From NCBI GenBank assembly GCA_030141605.1, contig JAQGDQ010000020.1:1138001-1202000 (forward strand): DNA of 64,000 bases. Direction: 5' to 3'. Source of the DNA: Tubiluchus corallicola (lineage: Eukaryota; Priapulida; Priapulimorpha; Priapulimorphida; Tubiluchidae). The translations under genes were made by a program, and so were the position numbers. The notes below the pieces were generated by a model. It had not been told where the DNA came from and did no database searches. It was given only the letters and a program-made list of their open reading frames with translations. How positions within the stretch are numbered: the first letter of the stretch is position 1; the number at the start of each line of letters is the position of its first letter. Of the stretch, positions 29,061 through 64,000 are shown piece by piece.

Positions 29061-31489
29061 GTAAGTTTGACTGAAATTTTAATCACCAATATTAAATATC
29101 TAGCTTTGAATGTTGATTTACTTGTGTTTACGACTCTACGAGTTAATTATGCTGCCTCCAAAGCTCAAAATGTTCAGGCTTTGCAGATTTGACTTAAAAT
29201 TATGTTTAATGTTTTTAACATTGAAACAAAAGTAACACTATTCCTGGGCAAAGAAAATAGTTGTGTGGTCGTGCTTGGCATCTAAAGTTAAACAACCTTC
29301 TGCTTAGTAAATGAGTGGGCGACTGACTGAAATGTTTTTGGGCAGTTTATCAGCCATGCTGGCTCTGCTGTTTCACTTGCTTAAGCAGGCACATACACTT
29401 TCAATCATGGTAACTGATTCTGCTAGTGCGGTATCTCATTTTAGATCATTGTTTTTGATTATTAATAACGTTTCATCCCTCTCACACTAAAAAGACCTTG
29501 ACACAATGTTAACACCATAGAATAAATTATCGAAATTTCTATAGAGGGAAAATGCTAATTTGACGTTGATACTTCGTAGCAGTGTACATGTATTAGTAGC
29601 GTTTTTAAACCTGCTGCATACCACTTATTCTCTAATGCCGAATCTCCATAATATTATTTTGCTCACTTGTGGATAAGATGCCAAAGTATGGCAGTTAAAA
29701 AACTGAATAAATTTGCATATACAGTAAAAAGACATTAGCAAATAATCAGTTTATTGTAAACAATAAAATTATTTAAAAATATATTAAAATCACAGAGTGC
29801 ATACTAGTACAACCAAGTGGTAAAAAGGTGCTATAACACAATAAACCATTATTTAAAAAAATCAAATAAAAAACTAAAGGAGTACGTATTTGCCAAGATT
29901 ATATTACTACCATTTAAAAGTCTTTTCATACAGGGTATAGGTGAATAAAACTTGCAATTTGTTTTACATGTAGCTTCTAACAAGCTTTCCCCTTCTCTTA
30001 ATTGCATCGAAGGTAAACGAATAGGTAATAAATTAGTGTCTTTCTGAACTTTTCATTTTACGTACAAACTTTAAAATAGGGACAGTACGTCTTTCAATAA
30101 ATTTTTCAAATTCAGAGACTTCAGTGCATCTGACATCACAGCTGGTGTACAAAGGGCCTAAAATAATGTTGCAAATTTTACTTAATTGCTATGACACCAG
30201 TTATAAGACAACTTTAATGAATTTATATCTGACTGCGTTAATTACTGACTATATAAGATTTCTGTTTTTTATTGTATGGATTTCATTTAATTTTTCACAT
30301 ACATGTACGCGTACGTTCTCACATTTAGAATATTACCAGAAAGACGTTGATTGTCTCATAGAACCAAATTTGATTATCTGAACCATTTCAGTTCAGTTCA
30401 ATTCACTGGTGCTACTTTTAATCTGAGAATGTCGGCTGTAAGAGTAATCCCGCCACGTTGAGCTAAGAAAATTGAGAGTAACAACCGTCCGAGTCCGTAT
30501 ACGTTTCAATTTGCGGAGATGATTTAGGAAGTTTCGTCGCTCGCAAATCTGATTTGGCAGCCTAAACTTGGACAGCTGATGCGTAAAATTTTCTTTGGAC
30601 GGATTGTAGGCTTTGTCCCGCGTTTCCGTTTCTCGGAGTTGATGATTCATTTTGTGCGGTTATGAAACCTGCGTAATTTCCAAATGTAGGTTTTACGCTC
30701 AGATGATCCCGGTTGATTGCACAACAAATTTGTGGATTGAAGTCACAAAATTGCAAGATCGTGTGCCCGTAAGGATTATGCAAGGATTGTACAATTTTGC
30801 ATTTGTAAAGGCCCGTTATTGGTTTCAAGTTACAATTTCACATTTTGAAAGACCCATTATTGGCTTCAAGTTACAATTTCACATTTCTAAATACCCACTA
30901 TTGGCTTCAAGTTACAATTTCACATTTCTAAAGACCCACTATTGGCTTCAACTTACAATTTCACATTTCTAAAGACCCACTATTGGCTTCAACTTACAAT
31001 TTCACATTTCTAAAGACCCACTATTGGCTTCAAGTTACAATTTCACATTTCTAAAGACCCACTATTGGCTTCAAGTTACAATTTTACATTTCTAAAGACC
31101 CATTATTGGCTTCAAGTTACAATTTTACATTTCTAAAGACCCATTATTGGCTTCAAGTTACAATTTCACCTTTGTCATTTCGTTTCCTGGTTTTTTGCAG
31201 GTGAGTGCCATAACAGGAGTCAAAACCGGAACGGCCATGCCTTGTTTAGAAGATGGTCTATCCAGCGGACACGTTTCCGAATCCGATGATGAGATCGATA
31301 ATGGTCCGCCACCCGAGTCACTTACCATGCTACTGATGCGGCAGCAGATTAACGAGATCGAGCGAGAGGTGGCCGAGAAGCTTAGTCTGGAGGAGCAGAG
31401 GAGTTCCTCAGAGAGACAAAGTAGCACAGAACCTCAGATGTATCAAGCTGATTACGTACAACAGAGCTATCCACAGGTAAAATGCAACT

Positions 31490-42800: not shown

Positions 42801-45800
42801 TCTATGATAATCATTAATTTGTTTTTTAACTTTTCAAACAAGATCATTTTTGCCAATTATTATTGTGCATACAAACACGTGTGCAAAGTTTGATGTATTA
42901 GTAATATTATTCAAAAGTGTGATATATTAATAAAATTAATCAAAGTGTGATGTATTTATAACATTAATCAAAGTGTGATGTATTAATAACATTAATCAAA
43001 GTGTTATGTATTAATAACATTAATCAAAGGGTGGCATATTAATACCATTAATCAAAGTGTGATGTATTAATAACATTAATCAAAGTGTGATATATTAATA
43101 ACATTAATCAAAGTGTGATGTATTAATAACATTAATCAAAGTGTGATATTTTAATAGCATTAATCAAAGTGTGATATTATAATAACATTAATCAAAGTGT
43201 GATGTATTGTCTAGGGACACGTACGTGCAGAAAATACGCAGGGATGAGGAGGTGCGTCGAAGAGGAGGTAGCGGCAGCCGTCATCAAGATGCCGCAAACA
43301 TGCGGGGAAATCACGACGATGAGAGGGAATGCAGGGATGAGGAAGAAGACGATGACAGTGATGATGAGGATGTCTCGCGTCAGCATCATAATCATCACTC
43401 AGATGATGGTAGTTTTTTGTTTTTCCTCTTTGTTGACAAATGTTTTTTTCCTGTACATGTTAGGTGTAAAGTGTGGTGAATTTGTTGTTGTTCCATTTGT
43501 GAGTTGGAAATTGCTCTGAAATCTGGTGCTTTGTGCCAAACTAGGGCTGTGGGGGCTGCCCTTTCGAATTTCCTGTGAACAATTTTTCATTTTGCCATAT
43601 CCACAAGAACAGTAACATACCAATGTGGTTTTCGTGATGAGTTGCCGAGGGGGGAGCAAGGAGAGCAGTATTACTGCTATTGTTCTAAAGTGTTTCTGCT
43701 GGGGTTTGTCAATGTGTGTCTGAATGGACAACGTTGATGAGCCTGACTTCTGCCATGTCACATTGTACTTAATACAGTTGTTGTTGTGCAGTGTGACATA
43801 GTACTTGCGTAACCATAAATGATTACACTTGTTGTGCAGGAACTATGACACAACACGGTTGCTGGAAAACATAATGTTTACAGGTGTCTTAGTTATGTCT
43901 GATGTTCCCAGACATCATGTTCAATGTGTAATGTAATTCTAATATTTATAATCGTTGTGCATTCATGTTTTACTTACCGTTATTATGTTCCGTATTTATT
44001 CTTCAATTTGCCTCTAGACATTCAGGTAGACAGTTGCCATGAGCAGACCGTTGCCGTAAAGCCGCCGACGGCTCCCCTCCGTGGTAGGTTAAGTAACAAC
44101 AGTGAGAACTTTGCATGAGTAATGAAACGTGCATGCGCTTACCAAATTGTACTATATTTTGTCTAATGAGCACTTTTAATTTCGTTTAATAGCGTAGATC
44201 TTTTTGGCTTAGTATGGAAACAGTTAGTAGTGTAGTTTGAAATTTCAGGCTCAAATGTCACTGTTGAAAATTTGTGGTCACTAATCGAATTCGTTTGGTG
44301 GTGCCACAGTAACTTGTCTCAATTCACAGTGTGTGCTTTAATTACAGTAATACTGCCTTTCTTTTTGAATAAATATGTCATTTATTGTGGATTTAATACT
44401 ATTACTGCGAGCTGTTACCTGTTGGATAATATTGCTGCAGCTGTTAAATATTGGACCAGGTAATTTAGGTTAGAGAAGGGAATCAGAACTAACTATTTTG
44501 ATTCCGTGATGTGTTTTCTATTCAGTAAAACTAATCGAACTATTGTGAATCATGCTTGCTATTCTTACTATATTGTTTTTTAATTAATCATTAATACTTT
44601 CATGAGTAAAAACTTAAGAATAGGTCTGTACTTTACAAGAACTTGATACTAATAATAATTTCCAGAAGAGAGAATGTTCAACACATTATTAGTTAAGAAG
44701 TTTGTGTTAAGACTTGCTAAAGCAGTGTGTGTATGCATTTCAATTCTAGGTTTCTCGGACATGCTTTCAACTTAAGTTTGATAACTTGTTTTGCAACTAA
44801 CCAATATATTTTTTAAGTTTAATTAATTATCAAGTATTATTTTCATTTTGTGTTGATATTGCATGTCAAAGTTTGGAGCATCTTAAAAGTTTTTACAGTA
44901 TGAATTTTGTCATTTAATACAAATGAGTCTTTCTTTGCCCTTTGACATTTACCACGGATGATATACGTGTACATTAATTAGTAAAGTCGGTATTAACAAC
45001 GCCAAGGCAATTATGCTTCTATTGACTTGGCTCGAATTAAGCCAGCGTGGCGTTGCGTTCATTTGTTTGCTCAGTTGTCATAAATTTTGCAAACGTCTCA
45101 TCTTCCTTTGCTGGGTTCATTTTATTCCCGGGAGAAATAAACCGTTTTTGGCCGCGGAAATTTCCTCAATTTTTCACGAATGTTTTTACTAGTTTAATTT
45201 CGCGTGGTGTCATAACAGCGGCAGTTCAAAACCGTTTAGCCAATTTAAATTTATAGACAGTTTCGCTCGTAAATTTGTGACTTGACGTTTATAACTGCGC
45301 AATATAATGATGCTTAAGTAAAACAATGCAAGAAAGCATAAATTTCAAAATTCTTTATCGACCATATTTCAAATGTTAATTTGTTACAAAACAGTTGCTA
45401 GGGATGTGAAATTGTCTCATAAGTTTCTGCTAGTTGTAGGTGTAACTACATTGTATTAAGTCTAGGTACCCTGAGGTTTCTGTATCATCTTGACAATTGG
45501 AGCCAAGAATGGCAGAGAGACTGGTGAGTGACTGGATGGGTTAACTTTTGGATTCTCACTTTGGTTGGTTTCGTTTGCCGTGCTGATTATGGCCATTTAC
45601 CTCATAGACAGAGAATGTGTATATATCCAAATATGGCTAAGATGCCTCTGCCAGTTCAGTGGCTCATCTTACAAGCATATCGTCGATAATTAGTCAGTTT
45701 TCAGTCTTGCCACGACCATCCAACAAGTAAGAGTTGTTGTTGAATCTGGATTCCGAGTTGCAGAATTCCGAATTGGATAAAAATGACTTTGCTGTTTAAG

Positions 45801-51800: not shown

Positions 51801-54800
51801 GTCTTGTTTTACATGTGCTTTATGCGCAGGAATTCACCTGGGTCAACTTTAGCATAGCTTTCTGTGTTTTCTCTGTTAAGGCAAATGAACTTCTGTAGGA
51901 GCACGTGAAATTGATAAATATTGTATTTACGTCATACTTACAATGGTTACAATGTTTAACAGTGTGCAGTTTAGGTTTATTTATTTCATTTATTGAAGAT
52001 GAATTTATTTTAAAAACTTTCATAAGAATGTTAAATTCAAAGGTTTCCACCTGCGCAACTGAGTAGAGATACGTTTCTCATTGTCTGGGAGGGTTTCTGT
52101 TGTCTCTGTAATTATTAATATATTTCATAAATCCTACTGTACGTCTCATTGTGTCTATCATTTTTCATTATTTGTAGTGCCAGGGTAATGGTGCAACGCA
52201 CAATGGTTCTATCTCTTTGATATTGTTTATAGTGCACGTGTACTGTACAGTGTGCATTGTTTCACGCATTGTTTGTTTCATTGTTTCTAGTGTACACACA
52301 CAACCCTGAAGTTCTCATAGAGGGCGTCCTATTTCGAGCGCACTATCTCGGCTCTACGCAGCTGTTCTGTAGAGGCCCGCAGAGTAAAGCAACTCGGATG
52401 ATGCAAGCTCAGGAAGCAGTCAGCCGCATCAAGGTAAGCAGAGTAACTTTCTTGTACATCATTTGTTAACCGTGTTTCCTGACTCTTCACTCCTCACACT
52501 GAAAACATTTACAAAAAAAAGCTTATATCAAATGTGACTCCAATAACTATGCATTTTAGCACTCTGACCGGAAGTGTTTCCCGTTAATTACAACCTCAGT
52601 GCTTAAAAAACTTTAACATATACCTCATGTCACCTGCAAATTAGTTATCAAAATTAGTTTTTTAATGTCCGTGGGTAGTCACTGTTACCACATTCATCCG
52701 TGCTTTGCTATTGGCCGCCTGTTGCATATATTTGCTGCCATTTAGTGGCTTGCAACCAATAATAGCAACACAACAATAACAACTACTACAAGAATAACAG
52801 CAGCAACAACAACTACACTGACAACAACAACAGCAGCAGCAACAACAACAACAACATCAGCGACAACAGCAACAACAACAACAACATCATCAATAACAAC
52901 AACAACAACAGCAAAAGCCTCAACAGCCATTTTATTTATAAAGTGCACTTGAATATAACAATATCGGTCATGCTATGTTGTGCAAAGATAAACATTGCAT
53001 ACAATCCTTTTTTACTTATCAGTAACTTCTTTTTATTAACTATCTATATGTAAGTTACAAGTTCTAACTTTTTTATTACAAGCTGGCATGCATCACCTTT
53101 AAATGCTTTTAAATTAGTTTAAAATAATTCATAACTACGACTGAAAATAACAGGTAATGCGTCATTCATAAATTCGTACAATTACTTTGCTAAGCAGACC
53201 AAATCGATTACATTAATCCGTAGTGATTTATGCATATTTTCCAACCTGCAAACAGAATCATATACACAGTTTTATTTGCTGTAATCCCTGCCGTGTTTGT
53301 ATCATACACGGTTCTTCTTCTCCTAATCAATTCCGTTCTAATTAGCTGCTTCCTTGCTGATTTATGTTATTATTCAAATTCGTATGTCGTAGAATCTCAG
53401 GATTCACGTCACTCTCGAAGATTTACAAACGAAAATTAATTAATTTTCTCAAGCCATAAATAATCCGTAAACTGTTAATTTGCAAATGTTTTTGAAATAT
53501 TTGGTTTTTCGTTCATGGCTCATGAGTAAACGCGTACAGTACTGGCTTGTACCATGTTTTAGCTCTGCTGTTAAAACTTAAACTACTGTTGCCCATAGTT
53601 GATAGAACAGACGAAAAGTTTCTGAATTTCGAAACACAAATTTGTCTGAAACAAAATATAGAAAACTTGGGCTGAGCCTGCATTTGAACCAGATACCTTT
53701 AGATTACAAGTGCAGTGCAATGACCCCAATTTTATTCAATACCTTTAGATTACAAGTGCAGTGCAATGACCCCAATTTTATTCAATGTCATGTTTTAATT
53801 CACTTCTTATAGCTGTATTATCATCTACTTCGTCTCCGTCTAACCAACTTTCGAATTTTGTCATAAGAAATTGTCTCTTCTTTTTATTGATGACACTTTT
53901 ATCATACTGTGGAGCTTTGGAACTAATATCATTGTTAGTCAAATGTTACAAAATTTGGTGTTTGTGATAAGTTGTATAAAATTGCATCACACTAACTTCG
54001 TGCTGTCACTTGGGAGTTGTTATGCATAGTGGCATTTTAATCTCACCGGAGTACCCCCTCGGTTTCATCCATTTTCTTCATTTCTGCAGCCTCTAATGGC
54101 TGTAATATTAGCAAAACTTCAAGCTTGCGAGAAGCACGTCCTAATTGACCGACTCGCTGAAGTCATTACTGTTGAAAGCGGCTGCATTTTTCTCGTTCAC
54201 TGAATCATTACTACGTAGTTCACGCTCATTGATTTGTTCGTGTTTTCCATTAGTTCTTCACTGAGCTTCTATGTGTGTGTGTGTTATCCGATACAAGCGG
54301 GTTTGGAGTGGGAATTGTTATTAGAAGAGAGCGGAGGTTACTCTGTATTATATAGCAATGAGTTTTTAGGAGGAACCTCTTATTCTGTCGAGTACCGGAG
54401 TATCATTTAACCTCTCTAACACTTTTACATGCATCACATCAAAAAGTCTAATCATGAAAGCCAAAGCTGTGGCACCAATTGTATGGTCACATGCATCCTT
54501 TTCTGGCAAATTTTGCTGCTGTAACTTATATTTTTGCCCTGTTTCGTTAGTTATAAAATGATTCTTTATAACTTTTTCCTTTTGGCTTCTTATCTATGAA
54601 ACTCTTTTTGAGAAAATTTTTTGCAAGTTAGTGAGAATTTCATTTGTTTTTAAGAAAATGAGATATTTGCTAACAAATTAGTTATGAGAATTTAATTCCT
54701 GTGGACATACGTTTATTGTTTTACTGTAGCCACTTGCACTGAGTGACCACTGGTCATTTTGGGAGCGATTCGTATGCACATAAAAAAAATCTGTGTTAAT

Positions 54801-57800: not shown

Positions 57801-60800
57801 CCCATCTACTGTCCAGCCACTAACCTGGTTTTGGGTGATTTACTTAAAAAAACTGACATATAAAGAGTCTTAAAGACTTTTCTATCTGTATTCAATCTAA
57901 AAAAGTTTTCATTACAAATTTGTATAGTTTTTTACCATCTAGTGTGGTTTTTCTTTGAATGTGGTTGTCCTTTACAAATGTAAATATTCATTTGACATTT
58001 TCATTATTCCTATTTGTGTTGTGCAGGAAATTATGATGGATCATGCGCTCCGGACCATATCATACATTGCCGACATTGGTGACATCATCGTCGTCATGGC
58101 GAGAAGGAGAGTGGTCACCGACGATAAGTCCGGCAAGGTGGTCGTTGGTCAGCAAGCCAAGATGATCTGTCACGTCTTCGAAACTGAGGAAGTAAGCAAA
58201 AATCTCCATCTTGAAAGTTTTTAGTTCTTTTACGTTGTAGTTACTCTGAATTTACTTATTGCACTTGTGGAAAGGATGTCTTTGGATAGATGTGTTGCTT
58301 GCTTTGGAAACATTGTGCACTCTGAATTCATCCAACTAATTCAAATTCAGGTCTCAGATCAAATGATAACTTCTTGCTCATGGTTCCTAGAGGGCTCTGT
58401 TCCACTGTGAGTGATAGGTCATTTGCTGTTGTAGAACCAGCTCTATGCAATGGTCTATCTGTCCACATCAGGACACTTTCCGACAACACTAGAGCACTTT
58501 TAAAAAAAGATGAAAACATACTTATTAAAATTGCTCACAGTCTTTAAAGTTATCAAATAATTTGCCGTAATTTACTTTTATTTTTATGGTTCTGTGTGTT
58601 TTTATGTATTTAATTATTGTATTTTTTATGAAATTTAGTAGGCTTGCTGTTTAATCCTGTGAACCTTTTTTATAAGCTTGTCGTGATAATTTTAGATGTT
58701 TTTGTGAAGCATCTTTGATTATTGTCAGTCGTGCTGTCTATAGATTTAGATGCTATACAAAACAAATATTATTATTAATATTGAGGAAAAGATGCCTGCC
58801 TTTTTAATAGTTCGAAGCCGGAAACCAGCATTCACTGGCAGATGAGCCACTGAACCAACACAGGTGTCTCAGTGATATTTGAATGTGAATATAGCCACCC
58901 TCTATGAGGTAAACAGCCAGAATCAGAATGGCAAATGAAACTTCCCAAAGTGAGAATTGAAGCTGTCATCCGTCCACTCACGACCAAAATTGGGCTGTTC
59001 ATAACTTTGGTCGCTAAACGAACACCGTGCCCACTAGGCCAGCAGCCTTCAAGCCAGGCACATCTTTGTTGAAGTGGAGCATAAATGGAGTAGGGAGGTT
59101 TCATTTGTGAAATCGATTACAGTTGCTTGTGGCAAGACCAAAACCTAGCTGTTTAACAAGATAATTCTCCGTGGTTCAAATATGTGTACATCCTCTGTCA
59201 TGTATGCTAGTATGAATGTTTTTATTCTAGGCGCCTCTCATAGCACAGTCTATTGGTCAGGCCTTTCAAGTCGCCTACGTTGAGTTTCTCAAAGCCAATG
59301 GCATCGAGGATCCGAACATTCTGCGTGAAATGGACTATCAAGAGGTGCTGAACTCACAGGAGATACCAGGAGACGAACTGAATATGTTTGCCAGTAAAGA
59401 GCAACAAAAAGAGGTACTTTGTATGGCTTCTTTTCTTTTTTACTTAGCATTTTTATGCTTTTATTATATTCTTATCTTTTGAACTTCTTGTTCATTTTTT
59501 ATTTTCTGTTACATTTCTTGTTCCGTTGAAAATTTAGGAAAAACGTCAGTGCACGATCTTCGTACTTTGGATTTACGTATTTTAACTTTTTAATTTAATT
59601 TAATTTATTAACACGATATACATATGCTGTACATTACAATATAATCAAAAGTTACATTAAAATGAATAAAATTTTTGAGCGCTGGGGAGCGCTGGTTACA
59701 TGTGACTACCAAGATCAACTATACACAGTCTTCTGCAGAATAATTTAAAATTTGTCACAAACAGAGAATCATTCGCAGAATTTGGAAGTGAATTCAACAT
59801 GTGATCAATCTGATTTGAAAAAACTGTCCAAACTGCTTTTTAATTGTTCTTTGTACAAATAGTTTCAACGAATGGAAATTATTCGTTGAAAGTATTTGAT
59901 TCAATGAAACAGTTTACTCCACATACGATCAGATGATACCCTAGTAAAAAAAAATTTCAGCACCCAAATATACTTCTTTTTGAAGGATTTTAAGGTAGTC
60001 GTGGACTTACAACCACAGTCGGTTCCGGCACATTGAACGTAAGATGAGTTGGATGCAAGTCGTGCCGTATAGTCAGCGTAACAGGTGCACCAAACTCACA
60101 AGACATTGTGTGTTTCTGCGCACTAAGTGTACTGGCACCTATACGAATTTATGAAAACAGACAGCGATTTAAAATTGATTTGTATAACAAAATAGAAGGA
60201 AATACGAGTCATGGTTGGTTTTGTTTAATTAACTATTAAAATTGCTGTCGGGTTGTAAAGTTGAATGTAATGACGTCTAATGACTTCAAATTTAGAACTA
60301 TGATACGTATTTCATACGTTTTTAGTAAGATTAGTCAATGTATCTGCAAAATGTAGAAAACACTTGATTCAATGTATTTTCAGATCATCACTCCAAAGTT
60401 AAAAGGTGAAATTCTTGGAGTAGTGATTGTCGAATCGGGCTGGGGTTCCATGCTACCAACCGTAGTCATTGCCAACATGGCACCCAATGGGGCGGCAGCA
60501 CGCTGCGGTCAGTTGAATATTGGTGACCAGATAATCTCTGTAAATGGTGTCAGTCTAGTGGGTCTGCCATTATCCACTTGCCAAAATTATATAAAGGTAA
60601 GGTTATATTACCACTCATGTGAACAGGTCATTGCAAATTAAACATCACACATGTGAACAGATCATTGTTGGTCTGTTATTGCTTATATACTTGCTCTATT
60701 TTGTTTTAACACTATCAATTTTTTGTTTGTGGTCTACAGGTGTCTGTAGAATAATTTTGTTTTTTTCCGTTGAAATTTTCCAGGCATGCAAAAATCAAAC

Positions 60801-63151
60801 AGTCGTGAAGCTGACCGTCGTCTCTTGTGCGCCGGTCGTAGAAGTCAAAATCAAGCGTCCTGATACAAAGTATCAGCTAGGCTTTAGTGTGCAGAACGGA
60901 ACGGTAGGTGGAGACACTGTACAGTTTGATAAAAAATTATTGACCCCCCCCCCCACACTTATGCAAGAAACCAAAAAAAAAGAAAGAAAATTGGGAGGAT
61001 TGTTTAATTTTAAACAAATGGCATTATTTAATGTCTATCAGCCATTTGCTGTTATGGTGTCTGTGTTAGGAATCGATGGAGGTGTGAGTGCTGAGACAAC
61101 TGGTGTTCTCTTTCATTTTAGTGGTCTGTCATTTCTTGCCACTGTATATAACTTTGGCTGTTTCTTTGCTTATTTGTGCCAAAGTTGATTGTTTTATGAA
61201 ACTTTGCAGATTTACTGCTTAAACCGATGCTCTTTTGTTAGGTTTTCCAGATTTTCTATGTGTCTATCGTGAAGTTGTTATTTTACGCTTATCGTGGGTT
61301 TGTTACTGTGATGAAATATTTGCAAGTTAATTGTTTGTAATGTTCAAACACTTTTAATAAACATTTAGTTAATCTTTTTTGTGATTCCAACTCCAGCTGT
61401 TGGAATACAACAAAAACAAACAGGTTGTTTTACTTTGTAGCTGCTGATATTTTTTTGAGCATTTGAAACATTTAGTATGCGTGCTTTGCTGATCTGTACA
61501 AAAGTCGTCTCTAAAGTACTTTACCTTGCATAGTTTTTTGGGCTATGTAATTTTTCTAGTTCATTATTTTGTCACAGTTTTCAGTTTGTTGTGATTACTA
61601 TTACCAAATCAAATAACTGTCAGTTTTAACATTTTATTAATTTTAAAAGCAAGAAAAGTTCTCGTATCCAGTAGGATACATTGAGCGTGAAAGGGTTAAA
61701 CAGTTTGATAATCCCAGCTCAGCTAGCCTGATTTCTACACCGTGTCCCTCCCGCTATATAGTTCTTAAAATCTTGAGTCATAGATGTATTAATTACGACA
61801 TCACAACTATTACTGTGCTGTAATTTGCACGTAGACTCCCGTAAATTGCCACTAATATACACATTATCTTTACCTGCAAATTGGCTAGCTCTTTGGTTTT
61901 GTTGATTTTTGATGAACTTTGAAATTTTTCATGATTTTTAAGCACTGCTTTATTTTTTTACCATTTATAATTCTTTCACAGATTTGTAGTCTACTTAGAG
62001 GAGGTATAGCAGAACGCGGGGGCGTCCGTGTTGGTCATCGCATCATAGAGATAAACGGCAACAGTGTTGTGGCTGTACCTCATGACCGTATAGTCAATTT
62101 ACTAGCTACCTCTATTGGCGAGGTTAGAAATTAAATATTTTGCATTGTCTTACACTCATACCTCTGTTTACTGGATCTCGCTTTTACAGATATCGGAAAA
62201 TTCGGACAAAACCCTGTTCCGTTAAAAGTCCTGCATGCAACAAAAACGGCTGTTATTTCACAAGTTGACTGCTAGCTAGCAGCCGCCGATTTGCTTACAT
62301 CCAAACAGCATGTAGCGACACGTGTGTAGTTTGTGCGTCAGCATCTTTAGTAGTTTAGTCAGCATCTCTAAGTGCTTTAGAGTCAATTATGTGGAGTTAT
62401 TTGAGTCAATTGCAGACAGTTTTTATATACTTTTGCATAGGTGCGGCCCGTACTAGATGTTTTTGAGACAGTTAGGCAATACACGGCGCCTACTATATTA
62501 GCTTAATATCTGAAAATACAGACAATCAGCAAATTCGGGCCAATGTGTCCCCGCTTTTGTGCAGCAAACCGAAATATGAGTGTATTTGTATTTTGAATAA
62601 AGGTGCATGATTATATTTACAGTTACATAGTTACTGCAAATGCACATTTGCTGATACTTTGGACTGAGGGAATAACTGAGTTGTCCTGGCGTGTGCTTGG
62701 TTGCAAAGTTAAGCAATGACGAGCATACTTATTAGTCTTTTTGCACACTGACTTATGGTCAGCTGCACACTGGTATTAACTTAATCTTGATTTATTTAAA
62801 CCAGTTTTAAAAACAACAAGCACTAGCTGTTTATAGCTAATTCCAACAATTAAATACTATAGTAATTTTACTGCCGTAACATTGTATTGAAATGATAACC
62901 TCATGCAAAGAAAGCAAGTACATGTACACAGCTTATAAGGTAACTGCACAGCCTGTGTTAAGTAAATATGATTTGATATCAGAGTGGTTATAGTGCCATC
63001 ATTTCTGGCTGGTTTTTAACTCTCAAAAAGCTAGAAATTAATTTTGTCTTCATCTAATTAACATTTTTTCCCTTTTCAGATACACATGAAGACTATGCCT
63101 ACATCTATGTTTAGACTACTGACTGGTCAAGAAACGCCCCTGTACTTATAG
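27954..63151 (+). CDS. APBA1: X11/Mint (APBA) family adaptor protein, 17 coding exons
   Basis: Spliced gene: join 27954-29060, 31201-31476, 36431-36572, 38569-38855, 39150-39409, 43215-43408, 44018-44083, 46525-46619, 47521-47551, 52291-52433, 56990-57076, 58027-58191, 59231-59413, 60384-60596, 60784-60903, 61982-62122, 63080-63151. The sum is 3582 nt, an intact frame of 1193 residues plus stop. All introns begin GT and end AG, and phases match at every junction. Layout: acidic disordered N-terminus (1 to about 820), PTB domain (about 822-985), linker helix (about 980-1010), PDZ1 (about 1019-1104), PDZ2 (about 1105-1182) and a conserved tail ending PLYL. Family knowledge: X11/Mint proteins bind the YENPTY motif of APP-type receptors through the PTB domain, bind membrane proteins and presynaptic partners through the PDZ domains, and work in neuronal trafficking and synaptic scaffolding (Drosophila X11L, C. 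elegans LIN-10, vertebrate APBA1-3). The family call rests on the PTB-PDZ-PDZ half. Whether it matches APBA1, 2 or 3 cannot be decided here; the symbol is a family label. Confidence 0.95.
29061..31200 (+). other. Intron 1 (between coding exons 1 and 2)
   Basis: 2.1-kb phase-0 intron. The exon 1 frame stays open for 132 nt past the donor (to 29192), which is not conserved-looking protein. AT-rich with no recognisable element until about 30780, where a 41-bp minisatellite fills the last 400 bases up to the acceptor tttttgcag. Confidence 0.85.
30778..31176 (+). repeat. 41-bp minisatellite abutting exon 2
   Basis: Copies of ttggcttcaagttacaattt... start at 30819, 30860, 30901, 30942, 30983, 31024, 31065, 31106 and 31147, exactly 41 bp apart; a diverged copy precedes them. 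The central copies are nearly identical (alternating cacta/catta at the end). The last, partial copy stops about 25 nt before the exon 2 acceptor, so the array forms the 3' end of intron 1 including the region where a branch point would lie. Confidence 0.97.
31201..31476 (+). CDS. APBA1: APBA coding exon 2 (residues 370-461)
   Basis: 276 nt, phase 0 at both ends (acceptor gttttttgcag, donor CACAG|GTAAAA). Encodes an acidic stretch ([19 protein letters not shown]) followed by a likely charged amphipathic helix at about 409-437 ([20 protein letters not shown]), then a Gln/Ser-rich tail with [12 protein letters not shown] that begins the Tyr/Gln-rich block of exons 3-4. The helix is the only structured-looking part of the N-terminal half. 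It could be the counterpart of the Munc18-interacting region of vertebrate Mint1/2, but I see no diagnostic motif. The exon lies between a 41-bp array on its left and a TAA microsatellite on its right. Confidence 0.9.
31491..31527 (+). repeat. (TAA)n microsatellite beside exon 2 donor
   Basis: About 12 uninterrupted TAA units starting roughly 15 nt after the exon 2 donor at 31477, with further interrupted TAA units to about 31541. Confidence 0.97.
32935..33398 (+). mobile_element. Possible hAT-like non-autonomous element
   Basis: The left end reads cagggccgtctttatg and the reverse complement of the right end reads cagggccatcttaacac, giving an imperfect terminal inverted repeat of about 15 bp starting CAGGGCC, as in many hAT elements. 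The interior is AT-rich and non-coding. No convincing 8-bp target duplication is seen, so boundaries and class are tentative. Confidence 0.45.
35903..36336 (+). mobile_element. Possible degraded hAT-like element
   Basis: The left part reads agggctaggttaacccataa and then cggggggcacc. The right part, reversed, reads aggaccggattaagatgtga and contains gggcacc. The two ends look like diverged inverted termini of the 'agggccggattaag' kind. Non-coding inside, no target duplication recognised. Confidence 0.35.
36431..36572 (+). CDS. APBA1: APBA coding exon 3: Tyr/His/Gln-rich (residues 462-508)
   Basis: 142 nt, enters phase 0 and leaves phase 1. Acceptor tctatttcag, donor GGTG|GTTAGT, which avoids the in-frame TAG just beyond. 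Reads [20 protein letters not shown], then Gln/His-rich [20 protein letters not shown]. The single leftover G joins AT of exon 4 to give Asp509. No homology recognised. Composition is continuous with exon 4, which supports the join. Confidence 0.87.
36653..36939 (+). mobile_element. Foldback element with triplicated 51-bp segment and (TA)n centre
   Basis: The left arm (36653-36736, atttgtattattgtgattg... to ...ccacacttcatatata) is repeated in inverted orientation at about 36860-36939 with only a few mismatches. Inside the left arm the segment acatgtgcatattgcttata... is present three times at 36687, 36738 and 36789 (51-bp period), followed by a (TA)n run at about 36836-36863. A single-stranded copy could form a stem of about 80 bp. 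It starts 80 nt after the exon 3 donor. Confidence 0.9.
38289..38490 (+). mobile_element. Short relative of the 40369-40995 TIR/tandem-core element
   Basis: Bases 38289-38395 (aaccagtatccacttaagca..., gtcatgtttgtgcaacaatc) match the left arm of the element at 40369. Bases 38420-38490, read in reverse, match one copy of its 79-bp core unit (acaagacaaatactaaatta...). So this copy holds one arm and one core unit in opposite orientation. It ends about 80 nt before the exon 4 acceptor. Confidence 0.8.
38569..38855 (+). CDS. APBA1: APBA coding exon 4: YSPQ/QVQY repeats (residues 509-604)
   Basis: 287 nt, phase 1 in and phase 0 out. Acceptor gcattttcag, donor TATAAG|GTATGA. Encodes a Tyr/Pro/Gln/Ser-rich low-complexity block. 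YSPQ occurs in [18 protein letters not shown] and again in GYSPQQVQY, followed by [21 protein letters not shown], so the unit is roughly (Y)SPQxVxY. A Gly/His-rich end ([13 protein letters not shown]) follows. Such regions are disordered and often sticky or phosphorylated; function here is unknown. Confidence 0.9.
39150..39409 (+). CDS. APBA1: APBA coding exon 5: conserved pre-PTB helix segment (residues 605-690)
   Basis: Phase 0 in (acceptor taaatatag), phase 2 out. Begins [20 protein letters not shown], then a helix-forming stretch [20 protein letters not shown] and [10 protein letters not shown]. The last part resembles the conserved segment before the PTB domain of vertebrate Mint1/2, where a helical stretch is followed by SP..., P.EP and WVMR. 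Two donors give the same phase: AG|GTATGG after 39382 and CAG|GTGGGT after 39409. I chose the longer, which adds YGNELDAIR. The shorter would end at WVLR, much like the vertebrate proteins. Confidence 0.88.
40369..40995 (+). mobile_element. TIR element with 79-bp tandem-repeat core
   Basis: The left arm (aaaataaaagccaacgccca, cttaaccaaagacatggctt, then aacgtttcgaccagttatgg) is matched by the reverse complement of the right arm ending near 40995 (cagcacccacttaagcaaag, acatggtttcattc, cagttttggtcatattc), about 110 bp of imperfect inverted repeat. Between them lie about 3.5 copies of a 79-bp unit (acaaatactaaattgtaaac..., starts near 40540, 40619, 40698 and 40777). No ORF. The structure resembles non-autonomous elements with minisatellite cores described in bivalves; family membership is not established. 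Confidence 0.88.
41177..41488 (+). mobile_element. Foldback/MITE-like element with arms of about 95 bp
   Basis: The left arm (ttaaaaaaatgaggcaaaag, agaaagggcacaccgttttg, aactaccagttgtagttctt) pairs with the right arm whose reverse complement reads cgatgcaaaaaaagaaaggg, cacacagtgtttcaaactac, caccgtagttcttcaggtga. The spacer is about 120 bp. No coding capacity. Confidence 0.88.
42882..43208 (+). repeat. 28-bp minisatellite running into the exon 6 acceptor
   Basis: Unit atcaaagtgtgatgtattaa + taacatta. Copies start at about 42911, then 42939, 42967, 42995, 43023, 43051, 43079, 43107, 43135, 43163 and 43191, all 28 bp apart. The last copy is cut after 18 bases and is followed by gtctag|GG, the acceptor. 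Each unit contains attaataac/attaatc, which resembles animal branch-point sequences. Confidence 0.97.
43215..43408 (+). CDS. APBA1: APBA coding exon 6: charged Arg/Asp/Glu/His-rich (residues 691-755)
   Basis: 194 nt, phase 2 in, phase 1 out (donor GATG|GTAGTT). The AG of exon 5 plus G gives Arg691, then [20 protein letters not shown], an acidic run [11 protein letters not shown] and a His cluster [11 protein letters not shown]. No domain. The exon is supported by phase agreement on both sides and by an open frame. A basic-to-acidic-to-His order within 65 residues is unusual. Confidence 0.82.
43409..44017 (+). other. Intron 6
   Basis: 609-nt phase-1 intron. No repeat or other element recognised. 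Confidence 0.75.
44018..44083 (+). CDS. APBA1: APBA coding exon 7 (residues 756-777)
   Basis: 66 nt, phase 1 at both ends. Acceptor tgcctctag, donor CGTG|GTAGGT. The G from exon 6 plus AC gives Asp, then [20 protein letters not shown] and Arg. Because it is a multiple of three with equal phases it can be included or skipped without changing the frame. No homology recognised. Confidence 0.75.
45488..45715 (+). mobile_element. SINE-like repeat, family B, + copy
   Basis: Matches the - strand copies at 12722-12962 and 58797-59060 over most of its length. Shared blocks include ccaagaatggc, tgactggatgg, gccgtgctgattatg, tttacctcatag and gttcagtggctcatct. The best-preserved head (in the 58797 copy) looks tRNA-derived. 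No poly(A) tail is clear in this copy. Confidence 0.85.
45885..46130 (+). repeat. Degenerate 80-bp tandem repeat, three copies
   Basis: actgtggttgatttaacag recurs about 82 bp apart (near 45922 and 46004), each followed by (a/g)[20 protein letters not shown] sequence. A third, weaker copy follows near 46069. Confidence 0.8.
46525..46619 (+). CDS. APBA1: APBA coding exon 8 (residues 778-809)
   Basis: 95 nt, phase 1 in, phase 0 out. Acceptor ttgacatttcag, donor GAAAAG|GTATCC. The G from exon 7 plus AT gives Asp, then [20 protein letters not shown] and [11 protein letters not shown]. Another acceptor (ctatttccag, 46510) would put the sequence in a different frame that does not join exon 9, so the downstream one is preferred. 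Hydrophilic, disordered linker before the PTB domain. Confidence 0.77.
46620..47520 (+). other. Intron 8
   Basis: 901-nt phase-0 intron; its second half contains a family C repeat (47040-47330). Confidence 0.75.
47040..47330 (+). mobile_element. Dispersed repeat family C, copy 1
   Basis: Matches 57173-57515. Both contain gccatattggatc twice about 110-130 bp apart, then ttccagtg..., caaaatttc...aatccatgcagtc, and end in aaac...ctcggctcgctt / ctgctcgctt. The end motif (aaaat..c.gtccagt.gtt, then caaacaga) is the kind often seen at 3' ends of non-LTR retrotransposons and their SINEs, so the + strand is probably sense. Confidence 0.8.
47521..47551 (+). CDS. APBA1: APBA coding exon 9, 31-nt microexon (residues 810-819)
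   Basis: 31 nt, phase 0 in, phase 1 out. It has a strong acceptor (ccaaatttttcccttgcag) and donor GAAG|GTGAGG. Encodes [10 protein letters not shown]; its last G joins TG of exon 10 to make Val820. Without it the phases of exons 8 (0) and 10 (1) do not match, which is good evidence that it is real. Not recognisable by homology because of its size. Confidence 0.8.
47552..52290 (+). other. Intron 9
   Basis: 4.7-kb phase-1 intron. The exon 9 frame stays open for 357 nt into it (to 47907). A GC-richer patch at 48470-48660 (gtgcacgatatcgcgtgtgc) may be a transposon end. No other element recognised; 51180-51820 is T-rich. Confidence 0.7.
52291..52433 (+). CDS. APBA1: APBA coding exon 10: start of PTB domain (residues 820-867)
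   Basis: 143 nt, phase 1 in, phase 0 out (donor ATCAAG|GTAAGC). Encodes [20 protein letters not shown], then GSTQLF and, after a short insert, [20 protein letters not shown] (838-844) and [12 protein letters not shown] are hallmark sequences of the X11/Mint PTB domain: first beta strand and following helix. Known function of the domain: binding of NPTY-type tails such as that of APP. Confidence 0.97.
52757..52926 (+). repeat. Compound CAA/CAG/CAT trinucleotide tract
   Basis: About 170 bp of mixed caa, cag, aac and cat triplets with occasional interruptions (caacaacaacaacatcatca, cagcagcagcaacaacaac). Intronic, not part of the predicted coding sequence. Confidence 0.97.
53665..53745 (-). mobile_element. 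tRNA-derived SINE fragment
   Basis: Read on the - strand: gtcattgcactgcacttgta, then atctaaaggtatctggttca + aatgcaggctcagccc. The ggttcaaat part fits a pol III B box, and ttgtaatctaaaggt resembles the anticodon-loop region of tRNA-derived SINEs. Stem pairing is poor, so not a functional tRNA. Confidence 0.5.
53695..53786 (+). repeat. Perfect 46-bp direct duplication
   Basis: acctttagattacaagtgca... occurs at 53695-53740 and again directly at 53741-53786 with no difference. It overlaps the SINE fragment, so part of the tRNA-like head was duplicated. The identity points to a recent event or an assembly artefact. Confidence 0.97.
54838..54955 (+). mobile_element. Dispersed repeat family D, copy 2
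   Basis: Matches 19966-20070: cttatcacacttttattacc vs cttattgcacttttattatt, followed by aaat(a/c)cttctaacattttt, then taacct(a)...cagaaggc and tttaa(c/a)gt. Non-coding; class unknown. Confidence 0.75.
55514..55589 (+). repeat. Perfect 76-bp AT-rich palindrome
   Basis: ataaaatatttatatagtat (55514) is mirrored by atactatataaatattttat (to 55589), with atgcat motifs and an (AT)n centre at about 55551. The 38-base arms pair without mismatch as far as I can read; a 20-nt (TA)n run borders it on the left. Confidence 0.93.
55647..55724 (+). repeat. 26-bp tandem repeat, three copies
   Basis: gatggccgacattaccgcac + tgtacc at 55647, 55673 and 55699 with a few substitutions. GC-richer than its surroundings. 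Confidence 0.95.
56990..57076 (+). CDS. APBA1: APBA coding exon 11: PTB domain (residues 868-896)
   Basis: 87 nt, phase 0 at both ends. Acceptor tttgtttgcag, donor TTACAG|GTTTGT. Encodes [20 protein letters not shown] and IMVLNTDLQ. The [15 protein letters not shown] pattern is strongly conserved in all X11/Mint PTB domains. Confidence 0.97.
57077..58026 (+). other. Intron 11
   Basis: 950-nt phase-0 intron; its first half is a family C repeat with a 120-bp internal duplication (57173-57515). Confidence 0.8.
57173..57515 (+). mobile_element. Dispersed repeat family C, copy 2, with 120-bp internal duplication
   Basis: cagtgccttgctctaatggt and cagtgccttgctctattcgt begin two diverged copies of a unit of about 120 bp, each ending ...tagacaccat..tggatctaag. 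The block ccattcattcaaaatttcgt, then tataatccatgcagtcgttt and ctgctcgctt matches 47040-47330. Confidence 0.82.
58027..58191 (+). CDS. APBA1: APBA coding exon 12: PTB domain core (residues 897-951)
   Basis: 165 nt, phase 0 both ends. Acceptor tttgtgttgtgcag, donor GAGGAA|GTAAGC. Encodes [28 protein letters not shown], a short basic loop ([17 protein letters not shown]) and [25 protein letters not shown] and the MICHVFE strand are signature parts of the X11 PTB domain, contributing to the peptide-binding groove. Confidence 0.98.
58320..58782 (+). pseudogene. LINE (CR1/L2/Jockey-like) ORF2 C-terminal remnant and 3' end
   Basis: The + strand translates between about 58395 and 58545 as [20 protein letters not shown], then [19 protein letters not shown]. 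This fits the common C-terminal motif of non-LTR retrotransposon polymerases (RSF.vaaP.lWN.LP..iR, then FK..LKT). Stops occur upstream, so it is a dead fragment. It ends in atgctatacaaaacaaatat + tattattaat, like LINE 3' ends with ATT-type tails. Confidence 0.75.
58797..59060 (-). mobile_element. SINE-like repeat, family B, - copy
   Basis: Read on the - strand it starts with tRNA-like sequence: gctggcctagtgggcacggt, then gttcgtttagcgaccaaagt, like the A-box half of tRNA-derived SINEs. Next comes gtggacggatgacagcttc and ttctggctgtttacctcata, shared with 45488-45715 and 12722-12962. Toward its end ggttcagtggctcatctgcc is shared with the + copy. It sits directly beside the LINE 3' end. Confidence 0.85.
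59231..59413 (+). CDS. APBA1: APBA coding exon 13: end of PTB domain and autoinhibitory linker (residues 952-1012)
   Basis: 183 nt, phase 0 both ends. Acceptor gtttttattctag, donor AAAGAG|GTACTT. Encodes [20 protein letters not shown] and KANGI, the conserved last helix of the PTB domain. Then [35 protein letters not shown]. The segment around Tyr987 ([10 protein letters not shown]..) aligns with the helix after the PTB domain of Mint1 that folds back over the peptide groove and is regulated by tyrosine phosphorylation. That role is known in the vertebrate protein and inferred here. Confidence 0.97.
59414..60383 (+). other. Intron 13
   Basis: 970-nt phase-0 intron. A tttaatttaatttaatttat run at about 59593 is followed by sequence reminiscent of a minus-strand LINE 3' tail, but nothing can be translated. 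Otherwise no element. Confidence 0.7.
60384..60596 (+). CDS. APBA1: APBA coding exon 14: PDZ1 (residues 1013-1083)
   Basis: 213 nt, phase 0 both ends. Acceptor gtattttcag, donor ATAAAG|GTAAGG. Encodes [76 protein letters not shown] (1021-1026) is the carboxylate-binding loop; [22 protein letters not shown] is highly conserved in the family. PDZ1 of X11 proteins binds C-termini of transmembrane partners and, in Mint1, the protein's own tail. Confidence 0.98.
60784..60903 (+). CDS. APBA1: APBA coding exon 15: end of PDZ1 and start of PDZ2 (residues 1084-1123)
   Basis: 120 nt, phase 0 both ends. Acceptor gaaattttccag, donor GGAACG|GTAGGT. Encodes [46 protein letters not shown] (1114-1119) is the carboxylate-binding loop of PDZ2. 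The last residue is Thr where family members I recall have Ile or Val (NG[IV]ICSL). The short upstream intron (60597-60783) is 187 nt and has no feature. Confidence 0.97.
60904..61981 (+). other. Intron 15
   Basis: 1.1-kb phase-0 intron. The exon 15 frame stays open for 288 nt (stop at 61186-61188). It has a C10 run at 60945 and an A-rich stretch at 60970-60990. At 61666-61699 gtatccagtaggatac + ...gtgaaagggttaa may be a piggyBac-like terminus. Confidence 0.75.
61982..62122 (+). CDS. APBA1: APBA coding exon 16: PDZ2 core (residues 1124-1170)
   Basis: 141 nt, phase 0 both ends. Acceptor ataattctttcacag, donor GGCGAG|GTTAGA. Encodes [47 protein letters not shown]. The [23 protein letters not shown] sequence is almost invariant in X11/Mint proteins and fixes the family assignment. 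Confidence 0.98.
62123..63079 (+). other. Intron 16
   Basis: 957-nt phase-0 intron with no recognised repeat or element. Confidence 0.75.
63080..63151 (+). CDS. APBA1: APBA last coding exon 17: PDZ2 end and C-terminal tail (residues 1171-1193)
   Basis: Acceptor ttcccttttcag, stop TAG at 63149-63151. Encodes [20 protein letters not shown] and LYL. IHMKTMP.SM.RLLT.QE.P.Y[IL] is the conserved C-terminus of the family. In vertebrate Mint1 this tail occupies the PDZ1 groove and is autoinhibitory; conservation suggests the same here. The stop codon's G is the first base of a 56-bp minisatellite. Confidence 0.98.
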   Translation: MHMKTMPTSMFRLLTGQETPLYL

Positions 63152-63574
63152 ACCTCAACTGTGACAAGTGCAGACTTGATGATGGTCAAGGAATGCCTCT
63201 GTTATAGACCTCAACTGTGACAAGTGCAGACTTGATGATGGTGAAGGAATGCCTCTGTTATAGACCTCAACTGTGACAAGTGCAGACTTGATGATGGTCA
63301 AGGAATGCCTCTGTTATAGACCTCAACTGTGACAAGTGCAGACTTGATGATGGTCAAGGAATGCCTCTGTTATAGACCTCAACTGTGACAAGTGCATACT
63401 TGACGATGGTCAAGGAATGCCTCTGTTATAGACCTCAAGTGTGACAAGTGCAGACTTGATGATGGTCAAGGAATGCCTCTGTTATAGACCTCAACTGTGA
63501 CAAGTGCAGACTTGATGATGGTCAAGGAATGCCTCTGTTATAGACCTCAACTGTGACAAGTGCAGACTTGATGA
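63151..63574 (+). repeat. 56-bp minisatellite starting in the stop codon, 7 full copies plus 32 bp
   Basis: Units start at 63151, 63207, 63263, 63319, 63375, 63431 and 63487; a partial one runs 63543-63574. Each reads gacctcaactgtgacaagtg, cagacttgatgatggtcaag, gaatgcctctgttata, with single substitutions in units 2, 4 and 5. The second half of each unit resembles the last 12 sense codons and stop of the gene. In that frame it reads RLDDGQGMPLL-stop against [12 protein letters not shown]-stop. Lies in the predicted 3' UTR. Confidence 0.98.
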
Positions 63575-64000
63575 GATATCAAACTGATTGTCTCACGTGT
63601 TTTGCATCAAAATATACGGCATCTACAAGAATGAAATTCGTATTTGACAATCACATGAATTTTGAAGTTTAAATGAAATTGCATTGCAACGTGCATCATT
63701 GCTTTTCTGTCTCTGATGAAGATTTGTGCTCTTGCCTTGGGAGATGTGAAAATGTGAATATTTGCCGCTGCTGTTTTCAGTGACCCATTTTTTAACCAAC
63801 ATTATGTACAGGGTGACCATGCTGTTACTGTTATCCTATTTCTTAGTAAACAACATTTAGGTCACCCAGTAATCGTCTATGTTTACCAAAATTTCATTGT
63901 AAGTATCGATAATGAATTTATAATAACTCTGTACATAAGTATAATTAGTGTAACAGATTTTGTGATAAAAATTATTGTACACATTAGCGTAGGGGTCGTA
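63575..64000 (+). other. Presumed 3' UTR or flank
   Basis: AT-rich, no ORF. No AATAAA or ATTAAA was seen between the stop codon and the window end, so the transcript end cannot be placed and may lie beyond the window. Confidence 0.6.

Follow-up and report, generated by a model that had tools for sequence, protein, structure and literature searches.

A minisatellite at the 3' end of an APBA gene in Tubiluchus corallicola that probably arose from the gene's own terminal codons

The window analysed here (64,000 nt of contig JAQGDQ010000020.1, positions 1,138,001 to 1,202,000) contains exons of APBA/Mint/X11, a nerve-cell scaffold gene, followed by a tandem array that begins within the last of them. 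The features, in window coordinates, are as follows.

52332-52439, + strand: PTB (PID) domain, PF00640 profile positions 1-36 (converted from contig 1190332-1190439)
58024-58206, + strand: PTB (PID) domain, PF00640 profile positions 71-122 (converted from contig 1196024-1196206)
60384-60596, + strand: APBA exon, PDZ-1 (phmmer on the translation; best match APBA1 chain 1u3b_A, E 6e-32)
60784-60903, + strand: APBA exon, end of PDZ-1 and start of PDZ-2 (translation, homology)
61982-62122, + strand: APBA exon, PDZ-2 (translation, homology)
63080-63151, + strand: final APBA/Mint coding exon, ending in the conserved tail and stop
63113-63117, + strand: AGACT motif of the coding tail, 6 nt 5' of copy 1, candidate left slippage site
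63124-63182, + strand: copy 1 (59 nt), 28 nt of coding tail including the stop, then 31 nt presumed to be 3' UTR
63183-63574, + strand: copies 2 to 8, seven 56-nt units (mean pairwise difference, 2.0%)
63564-63574, + strand: AGACTTGATGA, last 11 nt of copy 8; unique GATATC comes next

Both PTB matches are probably part of the same APBA gene as the PDZ exons. Exon boundaries were set by eye, at AG/GT for 60384-60596, and likewise by eye for 60784-60903 and 61982-62122; the sequence 3' of the stop is presumed to be 3' UTR.

TRF reported 7.7 copies of a 56-bp repeat at 63146-63574, with 97% matches. Phased with no partial unit, the array comprises exactly eight copies, 59 + 7 x 56 = 451 nt, at 63124-63574; it therefore starts inside the coding sequence and not at the third base of the stop codon, as an earlier note had proposed, while the other start given there, 63080, is that of the exon. 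The count of more than seven copies made in that note holds and can now be given as eight. Read in frame, the units encode RLDDGQGMPLL-stop, as had been described, with RLDDGEGMPLL in one unit and ILDDGQGMPLL in another, and are one codon shorter than the gene tail. All DNA matches in the whole genome lay inside the array at 63124-63574, and among eight protein matches in the genome, the tail was covered by the window's own exon only. The assembly could have collapsed the array or given it the wrong length.

The proposed relationship between the array and the C-terminal codons and stop was borne out. The last 39 nt of the ORF, stop included (63113-63151), aligned to the corresponding 36 nt of the unit with a score of 27, a value that was not reached by 100,000 mononucleotide shuffles (best, 9), by 20,000 dinucleotide shuffles (best, 6), or by 125,722 overlapping 39-mers from both strands of window positions 1-62900 (best, 9). 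Random synonymous recodings reached it in 2 of 100,000 cases (mean, -6.5); under two other scoring schemes, each shuffle and genomic control gave 0, and the recodings gave 25 and 5 per 100,000. When the common TTATAG was left out, 63124-63145 (22 nt) scored 14 against 19 nt of the unit, compared with a best control of 9 among 125,758 22-mers. The match resides in the coding 28 nt of copy 1 (one nucleotide, eight codons and the stop), which differ from 25 nt of the unit by three transitions and by a TAC codon that the unit has lost. Among 125,746 28-mers from window positions 1-62900, none scored as high. In translation, the unit has Gly in place of Glu, Met in place of Thr and no Tyr, the third transition (CCC/CCT) being silent.

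The suggestion that half of each unit is a degraded coding tail stands for these 25 nt but fails for the first 11 nt of the proposed match, where coding AGACTACTGAC matches AGACTTGATGA poorly: 1,677 of 125,780 window 11-mers match equally well. If AGACTTGATGA were coding derived, differences would crowd there (6/11 ungapped versus 3/25; Fisher p 0.012, with boundaries chosen post hoc). That derivation is not supported: since the same 11 nt also close the array before unique DNA, AGACTTGATGA is most simply read as the original 3' flank. In that case the segment that was copied joins 28 nt of coding sequence to 31 nt of putative 3' UTR, and a shared AGACT occurs near each of its ends. The data thus support tandem duplication of a stretch that runs from the last codons across the stop into the presumed 3' UTR, loss of 3 nt, and expansion, much as previously outlined, except that the source was 59 nt long and not about 56.

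The direction from gene to array is supported by the age of the tail. It is kept in the solved APBA1 and APBA2 chains, which points to the coding copy as the source; the APBA2 chain, 3suz_A, we take to be mammalian. The APBA C-terminus is an auto-inhibitory, PDZ-1-binding tail, and the array unit lacks its Glu and Tyr codons. PMC11405698 reports deep conservation of the tail, and by our own counting the Glu lost in the units would correspond to the one that this paper gives as conserved, six positions beyond the helix Arg.

All units share the same differences from the gene, which the earlier note took to mean that expansion followed divergence. This order, without later homogenisation, is only one option. 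The UTR half of copy 1 is identical to the consensus of copies 2 to 8 (0/31 differences; 0, 0, 0, 2, 1, 0 and 0 against the seven units singly), whereas its coding half is set apart from the units by three substitutions and one deletion (Fisher p 0.038 for the contrast, post hoc), a pattern that homogenisation by exchange would explain no less well. From it we infer that the array copies were kept alike by exchange, and that selection meanwhile held the coding tail unchanged. Transfer of a unit tail into the gene would be in frame for 7/7 units and would replace GQETPLYL with GQGMPLL (six units) or GEGMPLL (one), removing the Tyr adjoining the C-terminus and the Glu.

We consider it likely (probability about 0.8) that the minisatellite arose in place from the end of the APBA gene, hybrid copy 1 included. 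Judging from the anatomy of the locus, slippage or unequal exchange between AGACT-containing stretches, in the coding tail and 59 nt downstream, would have duplicated the end of the ORF (28 nt) together with the 31 nt that follow it in the presumed 3' UTR. AGACT remains a candidate slippage site, since it is only 5 nt long, the presumed junction lies 6 nt past the repeats, and a second AGACT occurs at 63090 in the same exon; the motif recurs at 63172 in copy 1 and, in all but one of the seven units, at 63228, 63284, 63340, 63452, 63508 and 63564. The additional copy, no longer under coding constraint, would then have lost TAC and acquired Gly and Met; the conserved protein suggests this lineage for the observed changes, although the silent CCC/CCT change can be assigned to neither copy. 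Unequal exchange or slippage may subsequently have expanded and homogenised the diverged version to seven 56-nt copies, making copy 1 a hybrid with a consensus UTR half and a coding half that would stay ancestral because its replacement would damage the auto-inhibitory C-terminus.

The locus offers a clean example of how a tandem repeat is born. The route has been described before for other repeats; the kind of event is known, and what is new is the place, the 3' end of APBA. The array is most likely a neutral 3'-UTR minisatellite that does nothing specific apart from making the 3' UTR longer by repeats prone to form hairpins. Room is left for a role in RNA, as the unit folds as a hairpin in the sense strand only (z -2.9, versus +0.14 for the antisense of the same unit).

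The last gene of the window is APBA/Mint/X11, on the + strand; its four exons are listed below.

APBA exons (boundaries placed by eye; exons not joined by a transcript)
60384-60596, + strand, first APBA exon of the four
60784-60903, + strand, second APBA exon
61982-62122, + strand, third APBA exon
63080-63151, + strand, fourth APBA exon

In translation these exons encode PDZ-1, PDZ-2 and the C-terminal tail, with matches to APBA1 and APBA2 chains of solved structure (first exon E 6e-32, the other three E 4.4e-56). Two PTB-domain matches (PF00640) lie upstream of the PDZ exons on the same strand; the order PTB, PDZ-1, PDZ-2 and then a conserved tail at the C-terminus is that of APBA/Mint/X11, here read across separate exons. 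The tail was compared with 3suz_A (APBA2) and 1u3b_A (APBA1), the latter with the C-terminal end RLLTAQEQPVYI; we take both chains to be mammalian. Because the coding tail is conserved in these solved chains, the APBA gene, judged from sequence comparison, is the source of the repeat and not the reverse.

TRF placed the array at 63146-63574, with a period of 56 and 97% matches. Phased on TGGTCAAG, it comprises exactly eight copies, one of 59 nt (63124-63182) and seven of 56 nt, and its right end at 63574 adjoins unique GATATC. Copy 1 thus takes in the final 28 coding nt, and the start of the array moves to 63124, within the coding sequence, from the third base of the stop codon, where the earlier note had placed it. 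Copies 2 to 8 show a mean pairwise difference of 2.0%, and the unit listing holds four substitutions in all. With eight near-identical copies of 56 nt (the first 59), the array is a minisatellite, a class with units of about 10 to 100 nt in several near-identical copies; in a search of the genome that scored only the best candidates, skipped very common words and read some stretches as N, matches were found at this locus only, which gives no sign of a dispersed satellite or a transposon-borne repeat. All of the array results rest on one assembly. A coding repeat was considered and rejected, since there are stops in all six frames and the period of 56 is not a multiple of three; read-through past the APBA stop would append TSTVTSADLMMVKECLCYRPQL before the next stop.

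The match between the coding tail and the unit is real. A single global alignment spans all 39 nt of the tail with a score of 27; the best scores among controls were 9 in 100,000 mononucleotide shuffles, 6 in 20,000 dinucleotide shuffles and 9 in 125,722 genomic 39-mers (window 1-62900, both strands). When the tail was recoded synonymously 100,000 times, only 2 versions equalled 27, and two further scoring schemes concur, with 25 and 5 recodings per 100,000 equalling the tail. The 28-nt core scored 26, and none of 125,746 28-mers exceeded 12; with TTATAG removed the score was 14, and the highest of 125,758 22-mers reached 9. The repeat is gene derived in that unit and coding end resemble each other more than chance allows, and the proposal in the earlier note that the unit derives from the coding end has borne out its shuffled-control check, the tail having beaten every shuffle and genomic control.

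The extent of the copied segment is a separate matter. In the version first proposed, the duplicated stretch runs from 63113 (AGACTACTG...) to 63171; divergence along its whole length came next and expansion last, which leaves a partial unit of 11 nt at the end of the array. The global alignment through all 39 nt is in its favor, as is the motif AGACT, which is common to both places, exactly where expected (63113-63117 and 63564-63568, 6 nt short of the junction); another AGACT lies in the exon at 63090. However, this version requires a chance partial unit, leaves unexplained the equality between the UTR half of copy 1 and the consensus, and needs the changes to crowd into the first 11 nt (6 of 11 positions differ there and 3 of 25 in the rest, ungapped; Fisher p 0.012 with post hoc boundaries, and less crowding with gaps). 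The 11-nt similarity is itself weak, being equalled by 1,677 of the 125,780 window 11-mers. We consider this version unlikely; it would be at odds with an array-less gene end that ran ...GTGCAGACTTGATGAGATATC after the stop.

We think instead, from the sequence, that the copied segment starts 11 nt downstream of AGACTACTG, and therefore there is no partial unit and no crowding of differences. The AGACTTGATGA of the unit also closes the array, with unique DNA directly after it, and because of this position it is most simply read as the original flank, carried along with the duplication. A single-copy ancestral gene end would then run ...TTATAG ACCTCAACTGTGACAAGTGC AGACTTGATGA, followed by GATATC-like DNA. 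The 59-nt duplication is well supported; AGACT is a candidate slippage site only.

No new mechanism is needed for the APBA array. In the model of Haber and Louis (1998), as presented in the available text of PMC3389668, direct repeats of 5 to 10 nt flank a segment, and slippage or unequal exchange between them gives rise to a minisatellite. The APBA array may resemble that account, as single-copy DNA close to 5-nt direct repeats (AGACT) has become a tandem repeat; it differs in a junction placed 6 nt beyond the common 5-mer and in a segment that spans a stop codon, so that one copy is still under coding selection. The same text gives a shortened terminal unit as a key feature of the Taylor-Breden type. 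Expansion from a single-copy sequence is common to that type and to the APBA array; in the 63124 phase, however, there is no partial copy and the first copy is 3 nt longer, whereas the phase of the earlier note leaves the 11-nt partial.

Over 25 aligned nucleotides, the unit differs from the coding tail by A to G (Glu to Gly), by C to T (Thr to Met) and by a third change, CCC/CCT, which is silent and is not assigned to either lineage; the unit has also lost TAC (Tyr). In its 31 presumed-UTR nucleotides, copy 1 is identical to the consensus of copies 2 to 8 and shows 0, 0, 0, 2, 1, 0 and 0 differences from the seven units taken singly, whereas the coding half of copy 1 differs from the unit by three substitutions and one deletion (Fisher p 0.038 against the UTR half, with post hoc boundaries). 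We infer that exchange has spread through the UTR half, and not the coding half, of copy 1. All seven possible recombinants between copy 1 and the units would be in frame and end in GQGMPLL or GEGMPLL. Selection against recombinants would be a natural reason for the preservation of the coding half of copy 1, because these ends are without the Tyr and the Glu of the tail motif, residues discussed in the available text of PMC11405698, with the Glu placed by our own counting. It is possible that divergence preceded expansion.

Since the first AATAAA or ATTAAA past the stop lies at 64414 on the window scale, in the stretch downstream of the window (L006), the 3' UTR probably extends for about 1.3 kb and includes the array. 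By eye, L006:245-640 (about 64245-64640) holds recurring GTCAGGGAAA-like motifs that resemble a degenerate dispersed repeat downstream of the array, and the first AATAAA falls inside this stretch. The unit folds on itself. We rejected an origin of the UTR part by inverted duplication: in a Watson-Crick alignment, the reverse complement of the tail aligns at the background level, 10,230 of 41,908 background stretches being as good for the native tail and 18,988 of 41,918 for the unit's tail.

A functional 3'-UTR element, built of one hairpin module per unit and tuning the APBA mRNA through the number of copies, has the strand asymmetry of folding in its favor. The sense unit forms a hairpin of -19.2 kcal/mol (z -2.9; 2 of 200 shuffles as good), whereas the antisense of the identical unit reaches only -9.8 (z +0.14; 103 of 200); a two-unit stretch gives z -2.9 sense and +1.55 antisense, and the whole array z -7.0 (0 of 100 shuffles as good), a figure inflated by repetition. 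However, the source copy at 63124-63182 folds weakly (z -1.6), and there is no sign of conserved pairing, because three of the four inter-unit substitutions hit paired positions and the folds of units vary, two being weaker (-15.4 and -16.9) and a third, which carries two substitutions, stronger (-21.5). We regard this role as improbable. Across 63080-64000, no Rfam family was found at E up to 1. Throughout positions 63152-63574, the hairpin of each unit is confined to the sense strand, with G-U pairs contributing.

It is more speculative still, and very improbable in our estimate, that the array is a standing reservoir of in-frame alternative C-termini, in which the auto-inhibitory GQETPLYL is swapped for GQGMPLL or GEGMPLL. 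If it were, recombinants in the population would carry a Mint whose PDZ-1 is released; selection would act against most of them, with the frozen coding half of copy 1 as its visible trace.

The human SLC6A3/DAT1 3'-UTR VNTR likewise consists of tandem units of comparable length (about 40 to 60 nt), here in a presumed 3' UTR; we know of no claim that its units come from the terminal codons and stop of SLC6A3 itself. Human VNTR loci occur in 3,512 exons and, relative to other tandem repeats, are over-represented in coding exons and in the 5' and 3' UTRs (PMC8096271). As in those exonic minisatellites, a tandem repeat here overlaps an exon end; an origin of the unit from the gene terminus, as in the APBA array, is not discussed in the available text of that source. 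The intronic minisatellites and tandem fourth-exon duplications of earthworm metallothionein genes, as described in the accessible part of PMC12783039, are a loose parallel only. Among the matches listed from the open-access literature, there was no stop-spanning minisatellite of such origin and none at an APBA gene. The locus offers a readable minisatellite birth, with source, candidate slippage sites, direction (readable through an ancient protein tail) and a seemingly frozen copy beside homogenised ones all in 500 nt. It provides a natural test of how far selection on a coding neighbour limits within-array exchange, and it is well suited to teaching, given a clear source and a coding copy that looks frozen.

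A TRF survey of 204 kb (the window and 14 other stretches of 10 kb from the same genome; period 10 to 150, at least 2.5 copies) found 29 arrays, covering 2.0% of bases. Because arrays are this common in the sample, one touching some stop codon in the genome is expected; that an unrelated minisatellite abuts this stop and resembles the tail by accident or convergence is nevertheless hardly credible, since the similarity lies above every control tried and is collinear, in frame and inclusive of the stop. Edges were tested on 17 arrays: 15 of the 29, hand-picked with a period of 24 or more (an AT-rich array at a stretch edge, L012:11-237, and a CA-rich one, L015:3788-3867, were omitted), and two with about two copies. 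The left edge of the APBA array was equalled by 1 of 2,000 shuffles and the right edge by 1,374 of 2,000. A diverged edge copy (4 or fewer of 2,000 shuffles) was present at 3 of the 32 other edges, on 2 of the 16 other arrays; degenerate edge copies occur, in a minority of arrays. Two long minisatellites, at 42884-43208 (28 bp x 11.6) and 30790-31173 (41 bp x 9.4), have flanks without one. Minisatellites are denser in the window, with 13 arrays in 64 kb (the present one included), than in the 14 other stretches, with 16 in 140 kb.
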